Shown here one piece after another: positions 44,088-52,395 of a DNA stretch of 52,395 bases. Numbering within the stretch: the first letter of the stretch is position 1; each line of letters opens with the position of its first letter. Origin of the DNA: Prochlorococcus sp. AG-679-P15 (GTDB lineage: Bacteria > Cyanobacteriota > Cyanobacteriia > PCC-6307 > Cyanobiaceae); the NCBI GenBank assembly GCA_003210695.1, contig QCUW01000002.1, positions 1 to 52,395 on the forward strand. Direction: 5' to 3'. The notes under the pieces were generated by a model. It made no database searches. It saw only the letters and a list, made by a program, of their open reading frames with translations, and was not told the DNA's origin. Position numbers and translations under genes: made by a program.

Positions 44088-45245
44088 CTAAGAACGGACT
44101 TGAACTGGCATAACTAAATAAGTAAAAGCATTAACACTATCTTCTGGAACCAGAACAGCTGGTGTTGTAGGAAGATTACATTTAAAAATTACATTTTGAC
44201 TTGAAATAACTTTTAAGCCCTCTAAGAGATACCTTACATTAAAAGCAATATCAAACTGGTCAAAATCAAAAGATACAGGTACAGTTTCATATGCGTTACC
44301 AATATCTTGAGCCTCAGCACTAATTAAAGCTAAATCCTTTTCTTCTAATTTGATCTTCACAACACTACTTTGTTGGTCTGCCAACACTGCTATCCTTTCT
44401 AATGCTTCGATCAATTTTTTTGTATTAAAAGTAAAAATTTTGGAAAAACTATCAGGTATTAATTGAGGATAATTTGGATAAGAACCTTCCAAAGTTCTAG
44501 TAGTAATTATTTGATTAGATGAAATAAAAACTACCTGACCTTTATCATAAAAAAGTTTAATTGAATTTTCAGATGACCTCAAACTTACCAGTTTTTCTAT
44601 TTCTCTTAAAGATCTTGTTGGAATAGTAACTGATAAATTTTCTTGATCATTTGAATTGGATTCTTTATCATATAAATTTTCTTCATTACCTACCAAAACA
44701 ACAGCTAATCTATGACCATCCGTTGCTGCTGATTCCAAATATTTTAAGTTAAAAGTAAAATTCACTCCAGTCAATAATTGCTTAGAATCGTCAGTGCTAC
44801 TAGCAAATATAGTGAGTTTTAAAGCTTTTAAAAAAGAACTTGGATCAATATTTAAAGAGGTACCACTTTCAACAAATGGTAAATTAGGATAATCATCTGA
44901 TTGAATTCCTTTTAAATTAAAAGAACCCCTATCGCTTTTAATTAAAATATTATCTGAACTCTCATCTACCTCAAGAGAAACTGGAGTTTCACTTGGTAAT
45001 TTATTAACAATTTCAGATAAAAGTTTTGAAGGAATAGTGATAGCACCACTCTTATTAACATTTGCTTCAAAAGAAGTTTGTATTCCTAAATTCAAATCAA
45101 ATCCTGTCAAACTTATTTTGTTAGTTCCTTGGTCAGCTGTTAGAAGTAAGTTTGCGAGAATAGGATGAGTTGGTCTTGTAGAAACAGCTTTACTAACTAA
45201 TTGAATAGCATAATTAAATTCATTTTGGTTACAAACAATATCCAT
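44088..45245 (-). CDS. dnaN: DNA polymerase III sliding clamp, beta subunit
   Basis: A 385-aa beta clamp. ATG at 45243-45245 (MDIVCNQNEFNYAIQLVSKAV) is the family start; the track adds 24 residues. Three clamp-fold domains are present, ending AFTYLVMPVQVRS, with the conserved hydrophobic peptide-binding cleft. It encircles DNA for processive replication. Its upstream side faces the putative origin, as in other cyanobacteria, where dnaA is not adjacent. Confidence 0.97.
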   Translation of the reverse strand: MDIVCNQNEFNYAIQLVSKAVSTRPTHPILANLLLTADQGTNKISLTGFDLNLGIQTSFEANVNKSGAITIPSKLLSEIVNKLPSETPVSLEVDESSDNILIKSDRGSFNLKGIQSDDYPNLPFVESGTSLNIDPSSFLKALKLTIFASSTDDSKQLLTGVNFTFNLKYLESAATDGHRLAVVLVGNEENLYDKESNSNDQENLSVTIPTRSLREIEKLVSLRSSENSIKLFYDKGQVVFISSNQIITTRTLEGSYPNYPQLIPDSFSKIFTFNTKKLIEALERIAVLADQQSSVVKIKLEEKDLALISAEAQDIGNAYETVPVSFDFDQFDIAFNVRYLLEGLKVISSQNVIFKCNLPTTPAVLVPEDSVNAFTYLVMPVQVRS

Positions 45246-45317
45246 CTGATTTCGTAACTTTATTTCTATATTAGGTCTATTTTCTAAATTATTGCAATTA
45301 AAAATAATTCTTTTCAA

Positions 45318-45587
45318 CTTTGTTTTTCTAATAAATATTTTTCAAGTAAATAATTAATATAGTTATAGTAGTTTATGTGGAAACTGTGGATAAAATAAAA
45401 AATTACTTACGGTAACTTAGAAGGAGAAAAAATTTTTTAGTGGAAAAAAAAATCATATTGTGGAGGTTTATCGATTATTAGAATTTTTTAAAAATTTTAT
45501 CAACAATATTTAAATTGTTTTAATGATTAATCAACAGATTTTAGTTAGTTTTAAACTATTTCCACAGCCACTTTTATTTTTGGATGT
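45318..45587. other. Putative chromosomal replication origin (oriC) with DnaA-box cluster
   Basis: This very A+T-rich gap beside dnaN holds many DnaA-box-like 9-mers. Exact: TTATCCACA on the minus strand at 45385-45393, directly abutted by GTTTCCACA at 45376-45384. Near-consensus: TTTCCACTA (minus, 45438-45446), ACCTCCACA (minus, 45459-45467), TTATCAACA (45497-45505), TAATCAACA (45528-45536), ATTTCCACA (45558-45566). An A/T run near 45480-45520, including AACAAT-ATTTAA-ATTGTT, could be the unwinding element. The cluster and its dnaN neighbour support an origin; DnaA binding is not shown. Confidence 0.72.
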
Positions 45588-46691
45588 TTAGTATCCTAAA
45601 ATCTTAGTTATATTTTTTAACGATGGTTCTATATTTTTTCGGAATATAGCATCATTATTCTTAATTGCACAATCCGGATCTTTTAATCCATTACCCGTTA
45701 AAACACAAACTATAGTTGATTCTTTTTTTATTCTATTTTTATTTTTAATAAGTCCTGCCACTGATGCTGCACTTGCTGGTTCACAAAAGACACCTTCTTT
45801 AGCAAGGATTTTATACGCTTTAATAATTTCCTCGTCTGTAATAGATTGAAAATCACCTTTGCTTTCTTTTTTTACAACTTTTGCTTTATCTCTATTTACT
45901 GGATTTCCTATTCTAATTGCAGTTGCAATCGTTTCAGGATTTTCAACTATAATGTTTTTTACTAATGGAGCAGATCCTTCAGATTGAAATCCCATCATGA
46001 TTGGTAATTTTATATTTTTTCTTTTTTTTGAATATTCATTAAAACCCAACCAATAAGCGGTTATGTTACCAGCATTTCCCATAGGTATACAAAGCCAGTC
46101 AGGGGCAAAGCCTAAGTCGTCTATGATTTCAAATGCAGCTGTCTTTTGACCTTGTATTCGGTAAGGATTTACAGAATTTACAAGATTAATTGGATATTGT
46201 GAAGATAATTCTCTTACGATTTTTAAAGCTCTATCAAAATTTCCTTGTATTGAGATGATTTCTGCTCCATACATTAAAGCTTGAGCAAGTTTTCCTTGAG
46301 CAACAAAACCATCAGGAATTAAGACATAAGATTTTAAACCACCTCTTGAAGCATAAGCAGCAGCAGCAGCGGAAGTATTGCCTGTACTAGCACAAATTAC
46401 CGCTTCACTTCCTTCTTCTTTAGCTTTACTTATAGCCATAGTCATTCCCCTATCTTTAAATGATCCAGTAGGATTTAAACCGTCATATTTTAAAAAAACT
46501 CTTGTTTCGTTTCCAATCAAATCGCTTATTGATTTACTATAAATTAATGGAGTATTTCCTTCATTCAAAGAAATAATGGGAGTGCTTGAAGATACAGGTA
46601 AATATTGTTTATATGCATTAATTAATCCTGGCCACCTTTTTTTTCTGTAATTAAAATGAAATTTATCTTTGAGTTTATTTATTATTTTCAT
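45588..46691 (-). CDS. thrC: Threonine synthase
   Basis: A 367-aa PLP enzyme converting O-phosphohomoserine to threonine. PLP lysine K79 in [32 protein letters not shown] binds the substrate/phosphate. This is the short class of ThrC, of normal length for it. ATG start at 46691. Its 3' end borders the origin region. The gene order thrC-DUF1400-ubiB on one strand suggests a transcript running toward oriC. Confidence 0.96.
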
Positions 46692-46697
46692 AATTAT

Positions 46698-47270
46698 CTA
46701 ATTGTTTTTAATTTTTTCTAATGGCTGGTTTGTGAAAAATTTTAATAAATCTGCTATTGATTCTACTTTATCCATTACTTTACTTAAAGCGTTGACATTT
46801 AAAATAACAGTTTTAGTTGGATAAGCTTCAAAAAATTTTATAAGGTTTATTTTGCCATCTCCTAAATAAATACCTTTTACAAGGCTTGATCTTAGCGCTA
46901 ACATACCAGTTCTTTCATCGTTTGCCTTAGGGGTATGAAGTATAGAAGACAGCCTGCTCAAGAAAACATTTCCTATTTCGGAATATACTAATTTGCTTGC
47001 AAGAGTAATAGGTATTTCAAAACTTTTATTTAATGCTGATCGAATTTCTTCATCAGAAGAACCAGTTGCTTTTAAAATCCTTTTTAATTCATTTGATGAT
47101 TTTCCTTTATTAGCAAAATTTTTTAAAGATTCGACAGTTAAGGTTCTTGAAAATATGCTGTAGACTATTTTTATATTTTCTGCAGATTTAACTTTTGGAA
47201 TATTAAAGAAAAATTGGTTAACTATCAAAATTAAAAATATTTTAGGCAATAAAATCTTAGAAAATTTCAT
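46698..47270 (-). CDS. DUF1400 family exported protein
   Basis: A 190-aa protein with a signal peptide (about 1-29; hydrophobic LLPKIFLILIVNQFFFNI). The mature start AENIKIVYSIFSRTLTVESLKNFANKGK is the DUF1400 signature; in larger cyanobacterial proteins this domain precedes an alpha/beta hydrolase, but no hydrolase domain is present here. Role unknown, probably in periplasm or lumen. It sits 2 bp from the ubiB-like gene and 6 bp from thrC on the same strand. Confidence 0.83.
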   Translation of the reverse strand: MKFSKILLPKIFLILIVNQFFFNIPKVKSAENIKIVYSIFSRTLTVESLKNFANKGKSSNELKRILKATGSSDEEIRSALNKSFEIPITLASKLVYSEIGNVFLSRLSSILHTPKANDERTGMLALRSSLVKGIYLGDGKINLIKFFEAYPTKTVILNVNALSKVMDKVESIADLLKFFTNQPLEKIKNN

Positions 47271-47272
47271 TA

Positions 47273-49129
47273 TTAGATATTTGAACCAGCTGCAATTTTT
47301 ACAAGTCTGACTACGCTTTTCTCCGTTACTTTTTTTGCTATTTCAAAACCCATTTTTTTTGTGTAAGGTTCGTTTATAAGTCGTGGTACTTGTTTAAGAA
47401 AGATATCGATTGAATATCCTGGTACTTTTTGAATTATATTTAAAAAATTTCTGAAAGGTTCTATATATAAAATTAAATTATTAATATCTTTGTCACTTCT
47501 AGCGATATTTAATTTGACACTTTTTGGAAGGTAATTATTGACACTTTTTAATAACTGAAAACCTATCAAATCAATTTGGTTACTAAAACTTTGAACAATT
47601 TCATTTCTTAAGAATCCACCTTTTGGAGAAAAAAGTAGATTAATAACTTCATTAAGAAGTTTTTCTAAGTCAAGATTAGTTTGTTTTGCTGCATTAGAAA
47701 GTAAATCTTCTAATCTGTCCCATTTAAATTGTTTATTATCAAAAAGCATTTCTTTTAAACTCTCTCTTAATTGGGGATCAGGGTCTTCCATTAATCTTCT
47801 AGCAAAATATGGATAAGCAGCACCGAGTATCTTAAAGTTAGGATCAACACTTAACGCAATTCCTTCCAAAGTTAGTAGAGATCTAATTATAAGAGCATAG
47901 TATGGAGGTAATTTAAAGGGAAATTTGTACATTACTCCTGACATGTCGTCAGTTACGCTTTTGAAATCCATCTTTGAAACTCCAAGTTCAACTGCATTTA
48001 CAAATACATCTTGAAAAGCTGGAACAATAGGTTTAAGGTTTACCTCTTCTGAAAGAAAACCCAATTTAACAAAATCTTGAGATAATTTATCAAAATTTTT
48101 ATTCACAAGATGAACAACTGCTTGGATCAAACCTGATCTAGAACTTTTTGTAACTTCACTCATCATCCCGAAATCTAAGTAGCATAATCTTCCATCTTCC
48201 AAAGCTAATAAATTCCCTGGATGTGGGTCAGCATGAAAAAATCCATGCTCTAACAATTGCTCTAAACTACATTGCACACCTATCTCAATCATTTTGTCAG
48301 GATCAATACCTAATTTCTTAAAACCTTCAAGATTTGTTAACTTTGTTCCATCTATCCATTCCATCGTTAATACTCTTCTTGAAGTAGTTTCTTTATAAAT
48401 TTTTGGTACAGCAATTTTCGAATTATGTAAATGCATTTTTCTAAATTTTTCAGCATTTGCAGCTTCATTTAAATAATCCATTTCTTCAAAAACTCTTTTT
48501 CCCAATTCATCAATTAAAGCAACAAGATCGCTTCTAATAATTCCAATATTATTTTTCAGCCAATAAGCTATATTTCTAACTATGTATAAATCAAGCGTAA
48601 TTTGTTCTCTCAAACCTGGTCTCTGAACTTTTACAGCTACAACTTCTCCATTTTTAAGAACAGCCTTATGTACTTGTCCTAAAGAGGCAGCAGAAATTGG
48701 TTCTTTATTGATAGTTAAGAAAATATCTTCAATTTTTCTGTTTAAATCTTCTTCTATCAGATCCATTGCTTTTTTGCTATCAAATCCTGGCAATTGATCT
48801 TGAAGTTCAGATAACTCATCAAGAAGAATGCTAGGAATAATGTCAGGTCTAGTTGATAAAGCTTGTCCTGCTTTAACAAATGCAGGACCTAATTCCACTA
48901 ACAAATTTGTTAGTTGCTTAGCTCTGAATTTTGCTATTGATTCTTTTTTTAGTCGCCCCGTTAATTTATCCCATCCAACCGAAATTATATAAATAAATAT
49001 TGGAATTAATGTTTGCCAAAGCCTTTTAAAAAGTCGTTTGGGATTTTTTTGATAAATTTTTGAAATTATTTCTGGATCATATTTTAGTAATCCTGATGCT
49101 TCAATAAAATCGGTATAATCTTCATTCAT
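47273..49129 (-). CDS. ABC1/UbiB-family atypical kinase
   Basis: A 618-aa ABC1K protein. Family motifs: PAFVKAGQALSTRPDI (KxGQ), AASLGQVHKAV (A-rich loop), VAVKVQRPG (ATP lysine), HADPHPGNLL and YLDFGMM (catalytic aspartates). A hydrophobic stretch at about 41-52 may associate with membrane. In cyanobacteria and plastids these kinases regulate prenylquinone or tocopherol metabolism; the substrate here is unknown. Full length, ATG start, divergent from recN by 69 bp. Confidence 0.93.
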   Translation of the reverse strand: MNEDYTDFIEASGLLKYDPEIISKIYQKNPKRLFKRLWQTLIPIFIYIISVGWDKLTGRLKKESIAKFRAKQLTNLLVELGPAFVKAGQALSTRPDIIPSILLDELSELQDQLPGFDSKKAMDLIEEDLNRKIEDIFLTINKEPISAASLGQVHKAVLKNGEVVAVKVQRPGLREQITLDLYIVRNIAYWLKNNIGIIRSDLVALIDELGKRVFEEMDYLNEAANAEKFRKMHLHNSKIAVPKIYKETTSRRVLTMEWIDGTKLTNLEGFKKLGIDPDKMIEIGVQCSLEQLLEHGFFHADPHPGNLLALEDGRLCYLDFGMMSEVTKSSRSGLIQAVVHLVNKNFDKLSQDFVKLGFLSEEVNLKPIVPAFQDVFVNAVELGVSKMDFKSVTDDMSGVMYKFPFKLPPYYALIIRSLLTLEGIALSVDPNFKILGAAYPYFARRLMEDPDPQLRESLKEMLFDNKQFKWDRLEDLLSNAAKQTNLDLEKLLNEVINLLFSPKGGFLRNEIVQSFSNQIDLIGFQLLKSVNNYLPKSVKLNIARSDKDINNLILYIEPFRNFLNIIQKVPGYSIDIFLKQVPRLINEPYTKKMGFEIAKKVTEKSVVRLVKIAAGSNI

Positions 49130-49198
49130 AACTTTATCTACTTAAAACCCTTTATTTTTTTAAAAAAGAAGCTAATTTTCTTGTATAAAAGAATTACC

Positions 49199-50878
49199 AT
49201 GTTAATACAATTAAATTTAAAAAATATTGCCTTAATAGAAATTATAGAAATTAATTTCGAAAAAGGTTTGAATATTTTTACAGGAGATTCAGGTTCAGGA
49301 AAATCTCTGATATTAGATTCTTTAAATGTCTTATTTGGTGGAACTAATATACCCATAAAGCATTTAATTCGTCCAGGAAAAGAGGAATGTGTAATTGAGG
49401 CGAAATTTTCTAATACTTTAAAAGTATCTGATTGGTTATTTAGAAATGGTTTTACTAAAAATTCAGATGAAATAGTTGTAAAAAGAAAATCCTATAAAAA
49501 AAACAATAAAGTAATCTCAAAATATACTATCAACAATTTAAATATAAGTAAGAAACTTTTGGAAAATTTAGGTTTATTATTAATAGATTTTGCAGGTCAA
49601 TCTGATTCCTTTTTATACGATAGTCAAGAATATAGAAGATTGATAATTGATGAACTTGGTCCTAAAGAATTAAATAAGATAAATTTTGAAATTAAAAATA
49701 AGTGGCATGAAGTTCAGATTTTAAAAAAAAGAAGAGAAGAAATTCTACAATCTTTTAAAAAGAAAGAAGAGAATAATTTTGCAATTAAAGAAATGTATAA
49801 AATGTTGAAGGAAGCAAATTTAACTTCTGGCGATGAAATTATAGAATTACAATTGAAAGAATCCAGACTTGCAAACAATTTTGATATTAGTAAGTCTATT
49901 TCATTTTTACTTGATAATTTAAATAATTATAAAAATGAGGTTCCATCGGTAAGTGCTTTAATTACTGAATCAATAAAGGAATTAAGTAAGGTTTGTGAAT
50001 ATGATTTTAAGATTAAGAATTTTTATCTAAATTTAATAAATATTCAAAGTGATGTAGAAAATTTAATTTTTTCTTTAACAGAGTATCTAAATGGAGTTGA
50101 GAACGAAGATATTAGTTTGGAAGAAATTCAAAAAAGATTATTTTATTTGCAAAATTTAGAAAGAACATTTTCTTTAGAACTACCAAAATTGATCCTAAAA
50201 AGAGATGAATTAAAAAAGTTTGTAGATAAAAATTTATACGAGGATGAGATTATGAAGTTAGATATTCAAATCAGTCAATCAACATCAAATTTAGAGACTC
50301 TTTTTGAGATTCAGTCCACTCAAAGACGCAAAACAGCTAATCAGCTCCAAGAGTCTGTTATTTCTATATTGAAAAATCTGGGTTTAGAAAATGCAAATTT
50401 TTTAATTGACTTCACAAATGCTATTCCTTCTGCTGAAGGTAAACAAAATATAGATTTTCTTTTTTCTGCAAATCCTGATCAAAAGTTAGCACCGCTTTCT
50501 AAAGTTATTTCAGGTGGTGAAATGTCAAGGTTTTTGTTAGCAATAAAGTCTACTATTTCTAAAAAACCTGATACTTTTTTCTTAGATGAAATCGACAATG
50601 GTTTAAGTGGTAAATCTTTGCACTCTCTAGTTGATTTAATAAAGCTAACTGCACAACAAAGGCAGGTTTTGTGTATTACGCATCAGCCCTTTTTAGCAGC
50701 AGCAGGAAGTACTCATTTTAAAGTTAAGAAAAATGTTATTAATGGAATAACCTTTACTTCTATTTCTAAATTAACAACAAAAAAAGAAAAACAAAATGAG
50801 CTAATTGAACTTATTGGCGGACGTTTTAATGAAGCAAATAATTATGCTTCAAAACTAATAGATATGGCAGCCGCATAA
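49199..50878 (+). CDS. recN: DNA repair protein RecN
   Basis: A 559-aa SMC-like ATPase for double-strand break repair. The ATG at 49199 (MLIQLNLKNIALIEI) matches the family start; the track TTG adds six residues. Walker A GDSGSGKS (29-36), central coiled coil (about 150-340), signature VISGGEMSRFLLAIKS and Walker B FFLDEIDNGLSG are all present. No LexA-type palindrome was evident upstream. Confidence 0.94.
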   Translation: MLIQLNLKNIALIEIIEINFEKGLNIFTGDSGSGKSLILDSLNVLFGGTNIPIKHLIRPGKEECVIEAKFSNTLKVSDWLFRNGFTKNSDEIVVKRKSYKKNNKVISKYTINNLNISKKLLENLGLLLIDFAGQSDSFLYDSQEYRRLIIDELGPKELNKINFEIKNKWHEVQILKKRREEILQSFKKKEENNFAIKEMYKMLKEANLTSGDEIIELQLKESRLANNFDISKSISFLLDNLNNYKNEVPSVSALITESIKELSKVCEYDFKIKNFYLNLINIQSDVENLIFSLTEYLNGVENEDISLEEIQKRLFYLQNLERTFSLELPKLILKRDELKKFVDKNLYEDEIMKLDIQISQSTSNLETLFEIQSTQRRKTANQLQESVISILKNLGLENANFLIDFTNAIPSAEGKQNIDFLFSANPDQKLAPLSKVISGGEMSRFLLAIKSTISKKPDTFFLDEIDNGLSGKSLHSLVDLIKLTAQQRQVLCITHQPFLAAAGSTHFKVKKNVINGITFTSISKLTTKKEKQNELIELIGGRFNEANNYASKLIDMAAA

Positions 50879-50894
50879 ATCAAACTATTTCCAC

Positions 50895-50900
50895 TATAAT
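50895..50900 (+). promoter_or_regulatory. Possible -10 box of uvrA
   Basis: A perfect TATAAT lies 33 bp before the uvrA start codon in the 54-bp recN-uvrA gap. No convincing -35 element is visible at the right spacing, since it would fall in the end of recN. Support is sequence match and position only. Confidence 0.35.
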
Positions 50901-50932
50901 AGTAATTCTTTAAATCAATTATAGATTTAAGC

Positions 50933-52395
50933 ATGGTCAAAAAAAATAATTCTCTTGATAAAAGTAATGCAATAAATATTAGAGGTGCTCGCCAGCATAA
51001 TTTAAAAAATATAAACCTTAGCCTTCCAAGGAATAAATTTATTGTTTTTACAGGTGTAAGTGGCAGTGGTAAAAGTTCTTTAGCTTTTGATACTATTTTC
51101 GCTGAAGGTCAAAGGAGATATGTAGAAAGTCTCTCTGCTTACGCAAGACAGTTTTTAGGTCAGGTTGATAAACCTGATGTAGATAATATTGAAGGCTTAT
51201 CACCTGCTATATCTATTGATCAAAAATCAACAAGTCACAATCCTCGATCAACCGTCGGCACAGTAACTGAGATACAAGATTATTTGAGATTATTATTTGG
51301 TCGAGCTGGAGAGCCACATTGTCATCATTGTGGTCTGCCAATTGCTCCTCAAACAATTGATGAAATGGTTGATCAAATTGTTTTGTTACCTGAGGGAACA
51401 AGATATCAATTACTTGCACCTGTTGTAAGGGGTAAAAAAGGAACCCATGCGAAATTACTAAGCGGATTAGCTGCTGAAGGCTTTGCGAGAGTAAGAATTA
51501 ATGGTGAAGTTAGAGAACTTGCAGATAGTATTGAATTAGATAAAAATCATATTCATAATATTGAAGTTGTAGTTGATCGATTGATTGCTAGAGAGGGAAT
51601 TCAGGAAAGATTGAATGACTCTTTACAAACTTGTCTCAAAAGAGGAGATGGACTTTCAATTGTAGAAGTTGTGCCTAAAAAAGGAGAAACTTTACCTCCG
51701 AATTTAGAAAAAGAAAAGTTATATTCAGAGAATTATGCATGTCCAATTCATGGATCAATTGTTGAAGAATTGTCCCCACGATTATTTTCTTTTAATAGTC
51801 CCTATGGTGCCTGTCCTGATTGTCATGGTATTGGTTATTTAAAAAAATTTACTGCAGATAGAGTTATACCTGATACTTCTTTACCTGTTTATGCTGCTAT
51901 AGCTCCTTGGAGTGAAAAAGATAATACTTTTTATTTTTCTTTACTTTATTCGGTTGGTCAAGCATATGGTTTTGAATTGAAAACTCCATGGAAAGATCTT
52001 ACTGATTTGCAAAAAAATGTTTTACTATCAGGCTCTGATAAGCCAATTTTAATTCAAGCGGATAGTCGCTTTAATACTTCTAGTGGTTTTGAAAGACCTT
52101 TTGAAGGGATTCTGCCAATTTTAGAAAGACAATTAACAGAATCTAATGGGGAATTAGCTAAACAAAAGCTTGAAAAATATTTAGAGTTAGTACCTTGTAA
52201 AACATGTTCTGGTAAAAGATTAAAACCAGAGGCACTTGCTGTGAAAATTGGACCATATAACATTACTGATTTAACTTCAATCAGCGTATCGAAAACTTTA
52301 TTTCATATTGAGAAAATAATGGGATTAAGTAAAAACGTTGAAGAAAATATTACTTTATCTGAGAAACAAAAACAAATAGGCGAATTAGTGTTAAA
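50933..52395 (+). CDS. uvrA: Excinuclease ABC subunit A (3' partial)
   Basis: The frame from ATG at 50933 stays open to the window end (487 codons); the track omits it because no stop is reached. It is the first half of UvrA (~960 aa), the damage-recognition ATPase of nucleotide excision repair. Visible: Walker A FTGVSGSGKSSL (39-50), EGQRRYVESLSAYARQFLGQ, CHHCG, and the zinc region CPIHGSIVEELSPRLFSFNSPYGACPDC, where the second cysteine is His, as in many UvrAs. Then KPEALAVK begins the next part. Confidence 0.96.
   Translation, partial: MVKKNNSLDKSNAINIRGARQHNLKNINLSLPRNKFIVFTGVSGSGKSSLAFDTIFAEGQRRYVESLSAYARQFLGQVDKPDVDNIEGLSPAISIDQKSTSHNPRSTVGTVTEIQDYLRLLFGRAGEPHCHHCGLPIAPQTIDEMVDQIVLLPEGTRYQLLAPVVRGKKGTHAKLLSGLAAEGFARVRINGEVRELADSIELDKNHIHNIEVVVDRLIAREGIQERLNDSLQTCLKRGDGLSIVEVVPKKGETLPPNLEKEKLYSENYACPIHGSIVEELSPRLFSFNSPYGACPDCHGIGYLKKFTADRVIPDTSLPVYAAIAPWSEKDNTFYFSLLYSVGQAYGFELKTPWKDLTDLQKNVLLSGSDKPILIQADSRFNTSSGFERPFEGILPILERQLTESNGELAKQKLEKYLELVPCKTCSGKRLKPEALAVKIGPYNITDLTSISVSKTLFHIEKIMGLSKNVEENITLSEKQKQIGELVL

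Follow-up and report, generated by a model that had tools for sequence, protein, structure and literature searches.

The replication origins of Prochlorococcus, predicted by GC skew, are flanked by dnaN and the threonine synthase gene, with DnaA boxes in the vicinity, according to the excerpted account of 2010 (PMC2836286). In most cyanobacteria, dnaN lies beside the origin together with TTTTCCACA boxes (PMC4674748). The separation of dnaA from dnaN has also been described for this phylum, and in S. elongatus initiation at the dnaN-side oriC depends on DnaA (PMC7198777). The DnaA-trio, a 3'-GAT-5' repeat, forms together with a pair of boxes the basal unwinding system, in which the trios have the form 3'-NAN-5' and the first of them most often lies 10-13 bp from the stronger box; in vitro, the DnaA of S. 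elongatus is able to open the boxes and trios of its own origin (PMC8287927). Coverage gradients of Prochlorococcus ecotypes are reported to be bidirectional (PMC9589681).

The window that we analyzed (52,395 nt, the whole stretch of DNA under study) corresponds to contig C2 in a draft assembly of Prochlorococcus, which has 68 contigs and totals 1.08 Mb. The gap between the thrC stop codon and the dnaN start codon (45246-45587, 342 bp) is, judging from its sequence and that of its relatives, very probably the chromosomal oriC of this Prochlorococcus. It has a cluster of DnaA boxes above chance expectation, with dnaN and conserved neighbors next to it. The skew of three complete relatives switches at their orthologous gap, and a predicted DnaA is encoded in the window's own genome. 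An origin between thrC and dnaN is of an already described kind and is already known for Prochlorococcus. The neighbors, the boxes in the gap and the skew switch are the same as those reported in 2010, and we see no difference in kind. The box-by-box anatomy and the trio given below are absent from that account, as excerpted (PMC2836286). The likeness to the oriC of S. elongatus PCC 7942 lies in the adjacency to dnaN and the TTTTCCACA box of a DnaA-dependent origin (PMC7198777, PMC4674748). As far as the excerpted accounts go, that origin has eleven repeats with tested function, whereas the Prochlorococcus gap has seven box positions that are known from sequence.

The gene dnaN, encoding the DNA polymerase III beta clamp (385 aa), occupies 44088-45245 on the minus strand with an ATG start. 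Its product is nearest to named Prochlorococcus proteins, and the best relative among the matches listed is 96% identical. The list of open reading frames gave a TTG at 45317 as its start, which fits the interval taken by the sequence-only reading. We dropped this start in favor of the ATG at 45245, because nearly all relatives align in full from the ATG, and the gap is therefore 45246-45587. On the other side, thrC (threonine synthase, PALP family, 367 aa; 45588-46691, minus strand) is read toward the origin. No RNA family of Rfam was matched in the window.

Two forms of the DnaA box were accepted, the E. coli-type TTATCCACA and the cyanobacterial TTTTCCACA, which can be written together as TTWTCCACA. 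The sequence-only reading had described an exact and a near-exact box that abut each other, and both are there on the minus strand: the exact TTATCCACA at 45385-45393 (position 6, the upstream member of the tandem pair) and GTTTCCACA at 45376-45384 (position 7). The former is the only exact E. coli-type box in the window. The latter differs by two mismatches from TTATCCACA and by one from TTTTCCACA. Further from dnaN, the minus strand carries position 5 (TTTTCCACT, 45439-45447) and position 4 (ACCTCCACA, 45459-45467). The plus strand carries position 3 (TTATCAACA, 45497-45505), the weak position 2 (TAATCAACA, 45528-45536) and position 1 (ATTTCCACA, 45558-45566). Mean column identity across 27 gaps was 0.92 at position 1, 0.85 at positions 2 and 5, and 0.77 at position 3. 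Position 4 is degenerate here, and ACCTCCACA (at about 45459) can be recognized as a box position only because relatives keep a box-like sequence there in register. Thus, the statement that at least five more sites accompany the abutting pair stands if the three-mismatch ACCTCCACA is included; a limit of two mismatches leaves four.

Between the tandem boxes and dnaN lies a DnaA-trio element that had been missed before, CTA CTA TAA CTA (45360-45371, minus strand), whose complement carries 3'-GAT-5' repeats. It is separated by 4 bp from box 7 and by 13 bp from box 6; box 6 is the stronger one, and its spacing to the first trio falls within the reported 10-13 bp peak (PMC8287927). The criterion applied for a basal unwinding system was three or more 3'-NAN-5' trios no further than 16 bp from a DnaA box. 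The first, second and fourth of the four repeats fit; if consecutive repeats are required, two are intact. Tandem boxes followed by 3'-GAT-5' trios, with the stronger box upstream at 13 bp, are shared with the basal unwinding system of Bacillus subtilis and others, while the third trio is degenerate in this genome and unwinding here is a prediction (PMC8287927). It seems that the tandem boxes and the DnaA-trio complete a candidate basal unwinding system in this gap. The sequence-only reading had pointed to an A+T-rich core in the cluster. What matters for unwinding, however, is probably not this A+T-rich middle but the DnaA-trio, which sits between the tandem boxes and dnaN.

By analogy with other bacteria, DnaA, which is encoded elsewhere on the chromosome, would bind the tandem pair (45376-45393) as well as the boxes that flank it. 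An ATP-DnaA filament would then grow from the tandem pair onto the single strand that carries the 3'-GAT-5' trios (the complement of 45360-45371). This filament would stretch the trio strand and open the A+T-rich DNA toward dnaN. According to the model of the basal unwinding system, the A+T-rich stretch between the trio and dnaN (45318-45359) would be the first DNA to be unwound. Helicase loading and the establishment of two forks would follow, again as in other bacteria.

The conservation of these elements was surveyed in 27 same-genus gaps of 334-357 bp, including the window's own gap. All seven box positions are in register across the 27 gaps. The mean column identity of the boxes and trio exceeded that of the rest of the gap by 0.265, while the maximum in 350 circular shifts of the mask was 0.169. 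The trio sequence CTACTACTACTA is exact in 21 of the 27 gaps; this genome has CTACTATAACTA (45371-45360, minus strand). The third trio is thus degenerate here (TAA for CTA), and four perfect repeats are found in those 21 gaps. We also searched for a signature of tandem boxes, 4 bp and CTACTA, TCCACADTTYCCACANNNNCTACTA, with at most one mismatch. Of the 88 genomes of the genus, 76 had it, each of them once, and the backward control gave no match. Wherever dnaN positions were listed for the same genomes, the matches were just upstream of dnaN. Of the 12 genomes that lack the strict signature, three were looked at: in G039 and G295 the trio is intact and the second box slightly altered, and the contig of G072 ends too early to tell. 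A strict pattern found the CTA repeat in nine of another 20 family genomes, of which 19 belong to other genera and one to the same genus.

As our own genome is a draft in 68 contigs, skew was measured on three complete relatives (G015, G326 and G237), each represented by 20 stretches of 20 kb. The dnaN of G015 is 91% identical to that of the window, and G237 belongs to another genus. For the closest complete relative, the noise in raw GC skew was too strong at the scale of 20-kb stretches; a strand-corrected skew, in which the keto skew at third codon positions was regressed on gene strand and replication arm, resolved the switch. A skew switch located elsewhere had been named as grounds for giving up the candidate. 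The strand-corrected keto skew switched at this gap in all three relatives, and the candidate stands as far as this check goes. On a 20-kb grid, the best origin was 0 kb from the dnaN gap in G015, about 10 kb in G326 and about 1 kb in G237. The records of G326 and G237 do not start at dnaN, so the switch is not an effect of the record start. The F values of keto skew at dnaN were 96 to 319, a statistic that ignores the correlation between neighboring genes. In G015, GC skew alone was ambiguous and did not favor dnaN in a half-and-half model, while keto skew and TA skew favored dnaN. Within the window, keto skew is negative to the left of the gap for both gene strands and positive to the right, where it rests on four genes only.

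After gene strand was removed, the low-G+C Prochlorococcus genomes G015 and G326, which their base composition suggests to be high-light strains, showed a clear replication-strand effect at third codon positions. No perceivable strand asymmetry was described in 2010 for the codon usage of high-light Prochlorococcus (PMC2836286, as excerpted). Strand-corrected skew is weak but clear, and the gap between our result and that account, as excerpted, may come from the correction for gene strand.

Could the boxes be near-consensus sites that gathered by chance in an A+T-rich intergenic region? Such sites are abundant, with 226 in the whole window at two mismatches or fewer against 214 expected. Since this window-wide count is close to chance, the local cluster is what counts. 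The gap contains five sites within one mismatch of TTWTCCACA, where 0.26 are expected. Simulating the gap 2000 times with a first-order Markov model gave 0.26 sites on average and four at most; five were never reached. These five sites, within 270 bp, also form the densest cluster of the window, where 60 simulations of the whole window gave a largest cluster of four. With the same positions also kept in 27 gaps, a chance origin of the cluster is hardly credible.

An origin at or near dnaA would be a more familiar arrangement, as origins adjacent to dnaA are common in bacteria. The earlier observation that dnaN stands here without dnaA is right, and it is normal for these organisms: dnaA is about 0.5 Mb away in complete same-genus relatives. 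The gene stands at 532 kb in G015 and near base 1 in G237, and in G326 it is at 320 kb with dnaN at 828 kb. In the draft genome itself, dnaA is intact (463 aa, with PF11638, PF00308 and PF08299 representing domains I, III and IV). As the skew switched at dnaN, away from dnaA, in G015, G326 and G237, we consider it extremely improbable that replication starts at or near dnaA. The boxes might instead make up a DnaA-regulated promoter region of dnaN, with replication starting elsewhere. They do lie directly upstream of dnaN, and Synechocystis 6803 and Nostoc 7120 replicate independently of DnaA and oriC (PMC7198777). However, the skew switches at the gap in three complete relatives, the trio is conserved in the correct orientation and spacing, and a regular V-shaped skew accompanies clades that include the DnaA-oriC-dependent S. 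elongatus (PMC7198777). A promoter with replication starting elsewhere is therefore very unlikely; it is possible that the boxes have a regulatory role for dnaN on top of their function in the origin.

The directions of the genes around the putative oriC had been given correctly: dnaN, a PRC-barrel gene, purL and purF on the left and thrC, a DUF1400 gene and ABC1/UbiB on the right are all on the minus strand. It had been added that the right-hand genes run against the fork, which holds for three genes (45588-49129); the next two, a RecN/SMC-like gene followed by uvrA, are the first on that side to run with the fork. This RecN/SMC-like ATPase gene and uvrA, which is open at the contig end, occupy 49181-52393 to the right of ABC1/UbiB and represent repair genes near the origin. 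The view that head-on genes are unusual beside an origin has to be abandoned in this family, since a head-on thrC is part of its conserved gene order. In 27/27 same-genus gaps and in all of the 20 further family genomes, dnaN is preceded on its own strand by thrC; among these 20, the gap measures 337-494 bp in 19 and 1565 bp in one.

While looking for rival origins in the same genome, we met a second array of boxes outside the window. It has the form TTTTCCACA-N12-TTTTCCACG-TCC-ATATCCACA, all on one strand, and is located between the cbiX and DUF2811 genes (G000:C43:792-833, L112). With the exception of this conserved array, other paired-box sites in the genome were near background (five versus three in the backward control). 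In a family-wide set of 200 genomes, the pattern TTTCCACAN{8,14}TTTTCCACGN{1,5}WATCCACA was found exactly once in each of the 38 same-genus genomes, and neither in the other 162 genomes nor in the backward control. In all 14 genomes examined from 11 other genera, the best DUF2811 match is preceded by two same-strand box-like sites with a spacing of 21-22 bp. In G015, 617 kb separate the array from the origin and about 85 kb separate it from dnaA. The same intergenic region (703-1032 of contig C43) has further blocks conserved in the genus, including AGTCTNAATAGACT, ATGAGTCTCATTTGATAA and TCAACATT...TTGAC. No Rfam family was matched at the array, and literature searches, both for cyanobacterial DnaA sites away from the origin and for DUF2811, gave no paper describing it.

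The array could serve to titrate or recharge DnaA, act as a promoter under DnaA control, or be the target of another protein whose motif is similar. We tentatively suggest, from the conserved arrangement, that the DnaA of Prochlorococcus and its family might act at two conserved sites, oriC and this array, in which two or three boxes share a strand and the first two are spaced by about 21 bp. The array would then serve either for titration or recharging, like datA/DARS of E. coli, or as a DnaA-controlled promoter that ties DUF2811 to the cell cycle; such a two-site arrangement is a possibility that we would not yet favor. The array may matter more than the origin, as we found no paper on a DnaA control site outside oriC in cyanobacteria. 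The origin described here does not change views on how origins work. It supports the known origin site of an abundant ocean phototroph and adds a base-level map of the boxes and the unwinding repeat, a map that is useful for deriving growth rate from metagenome coverage.
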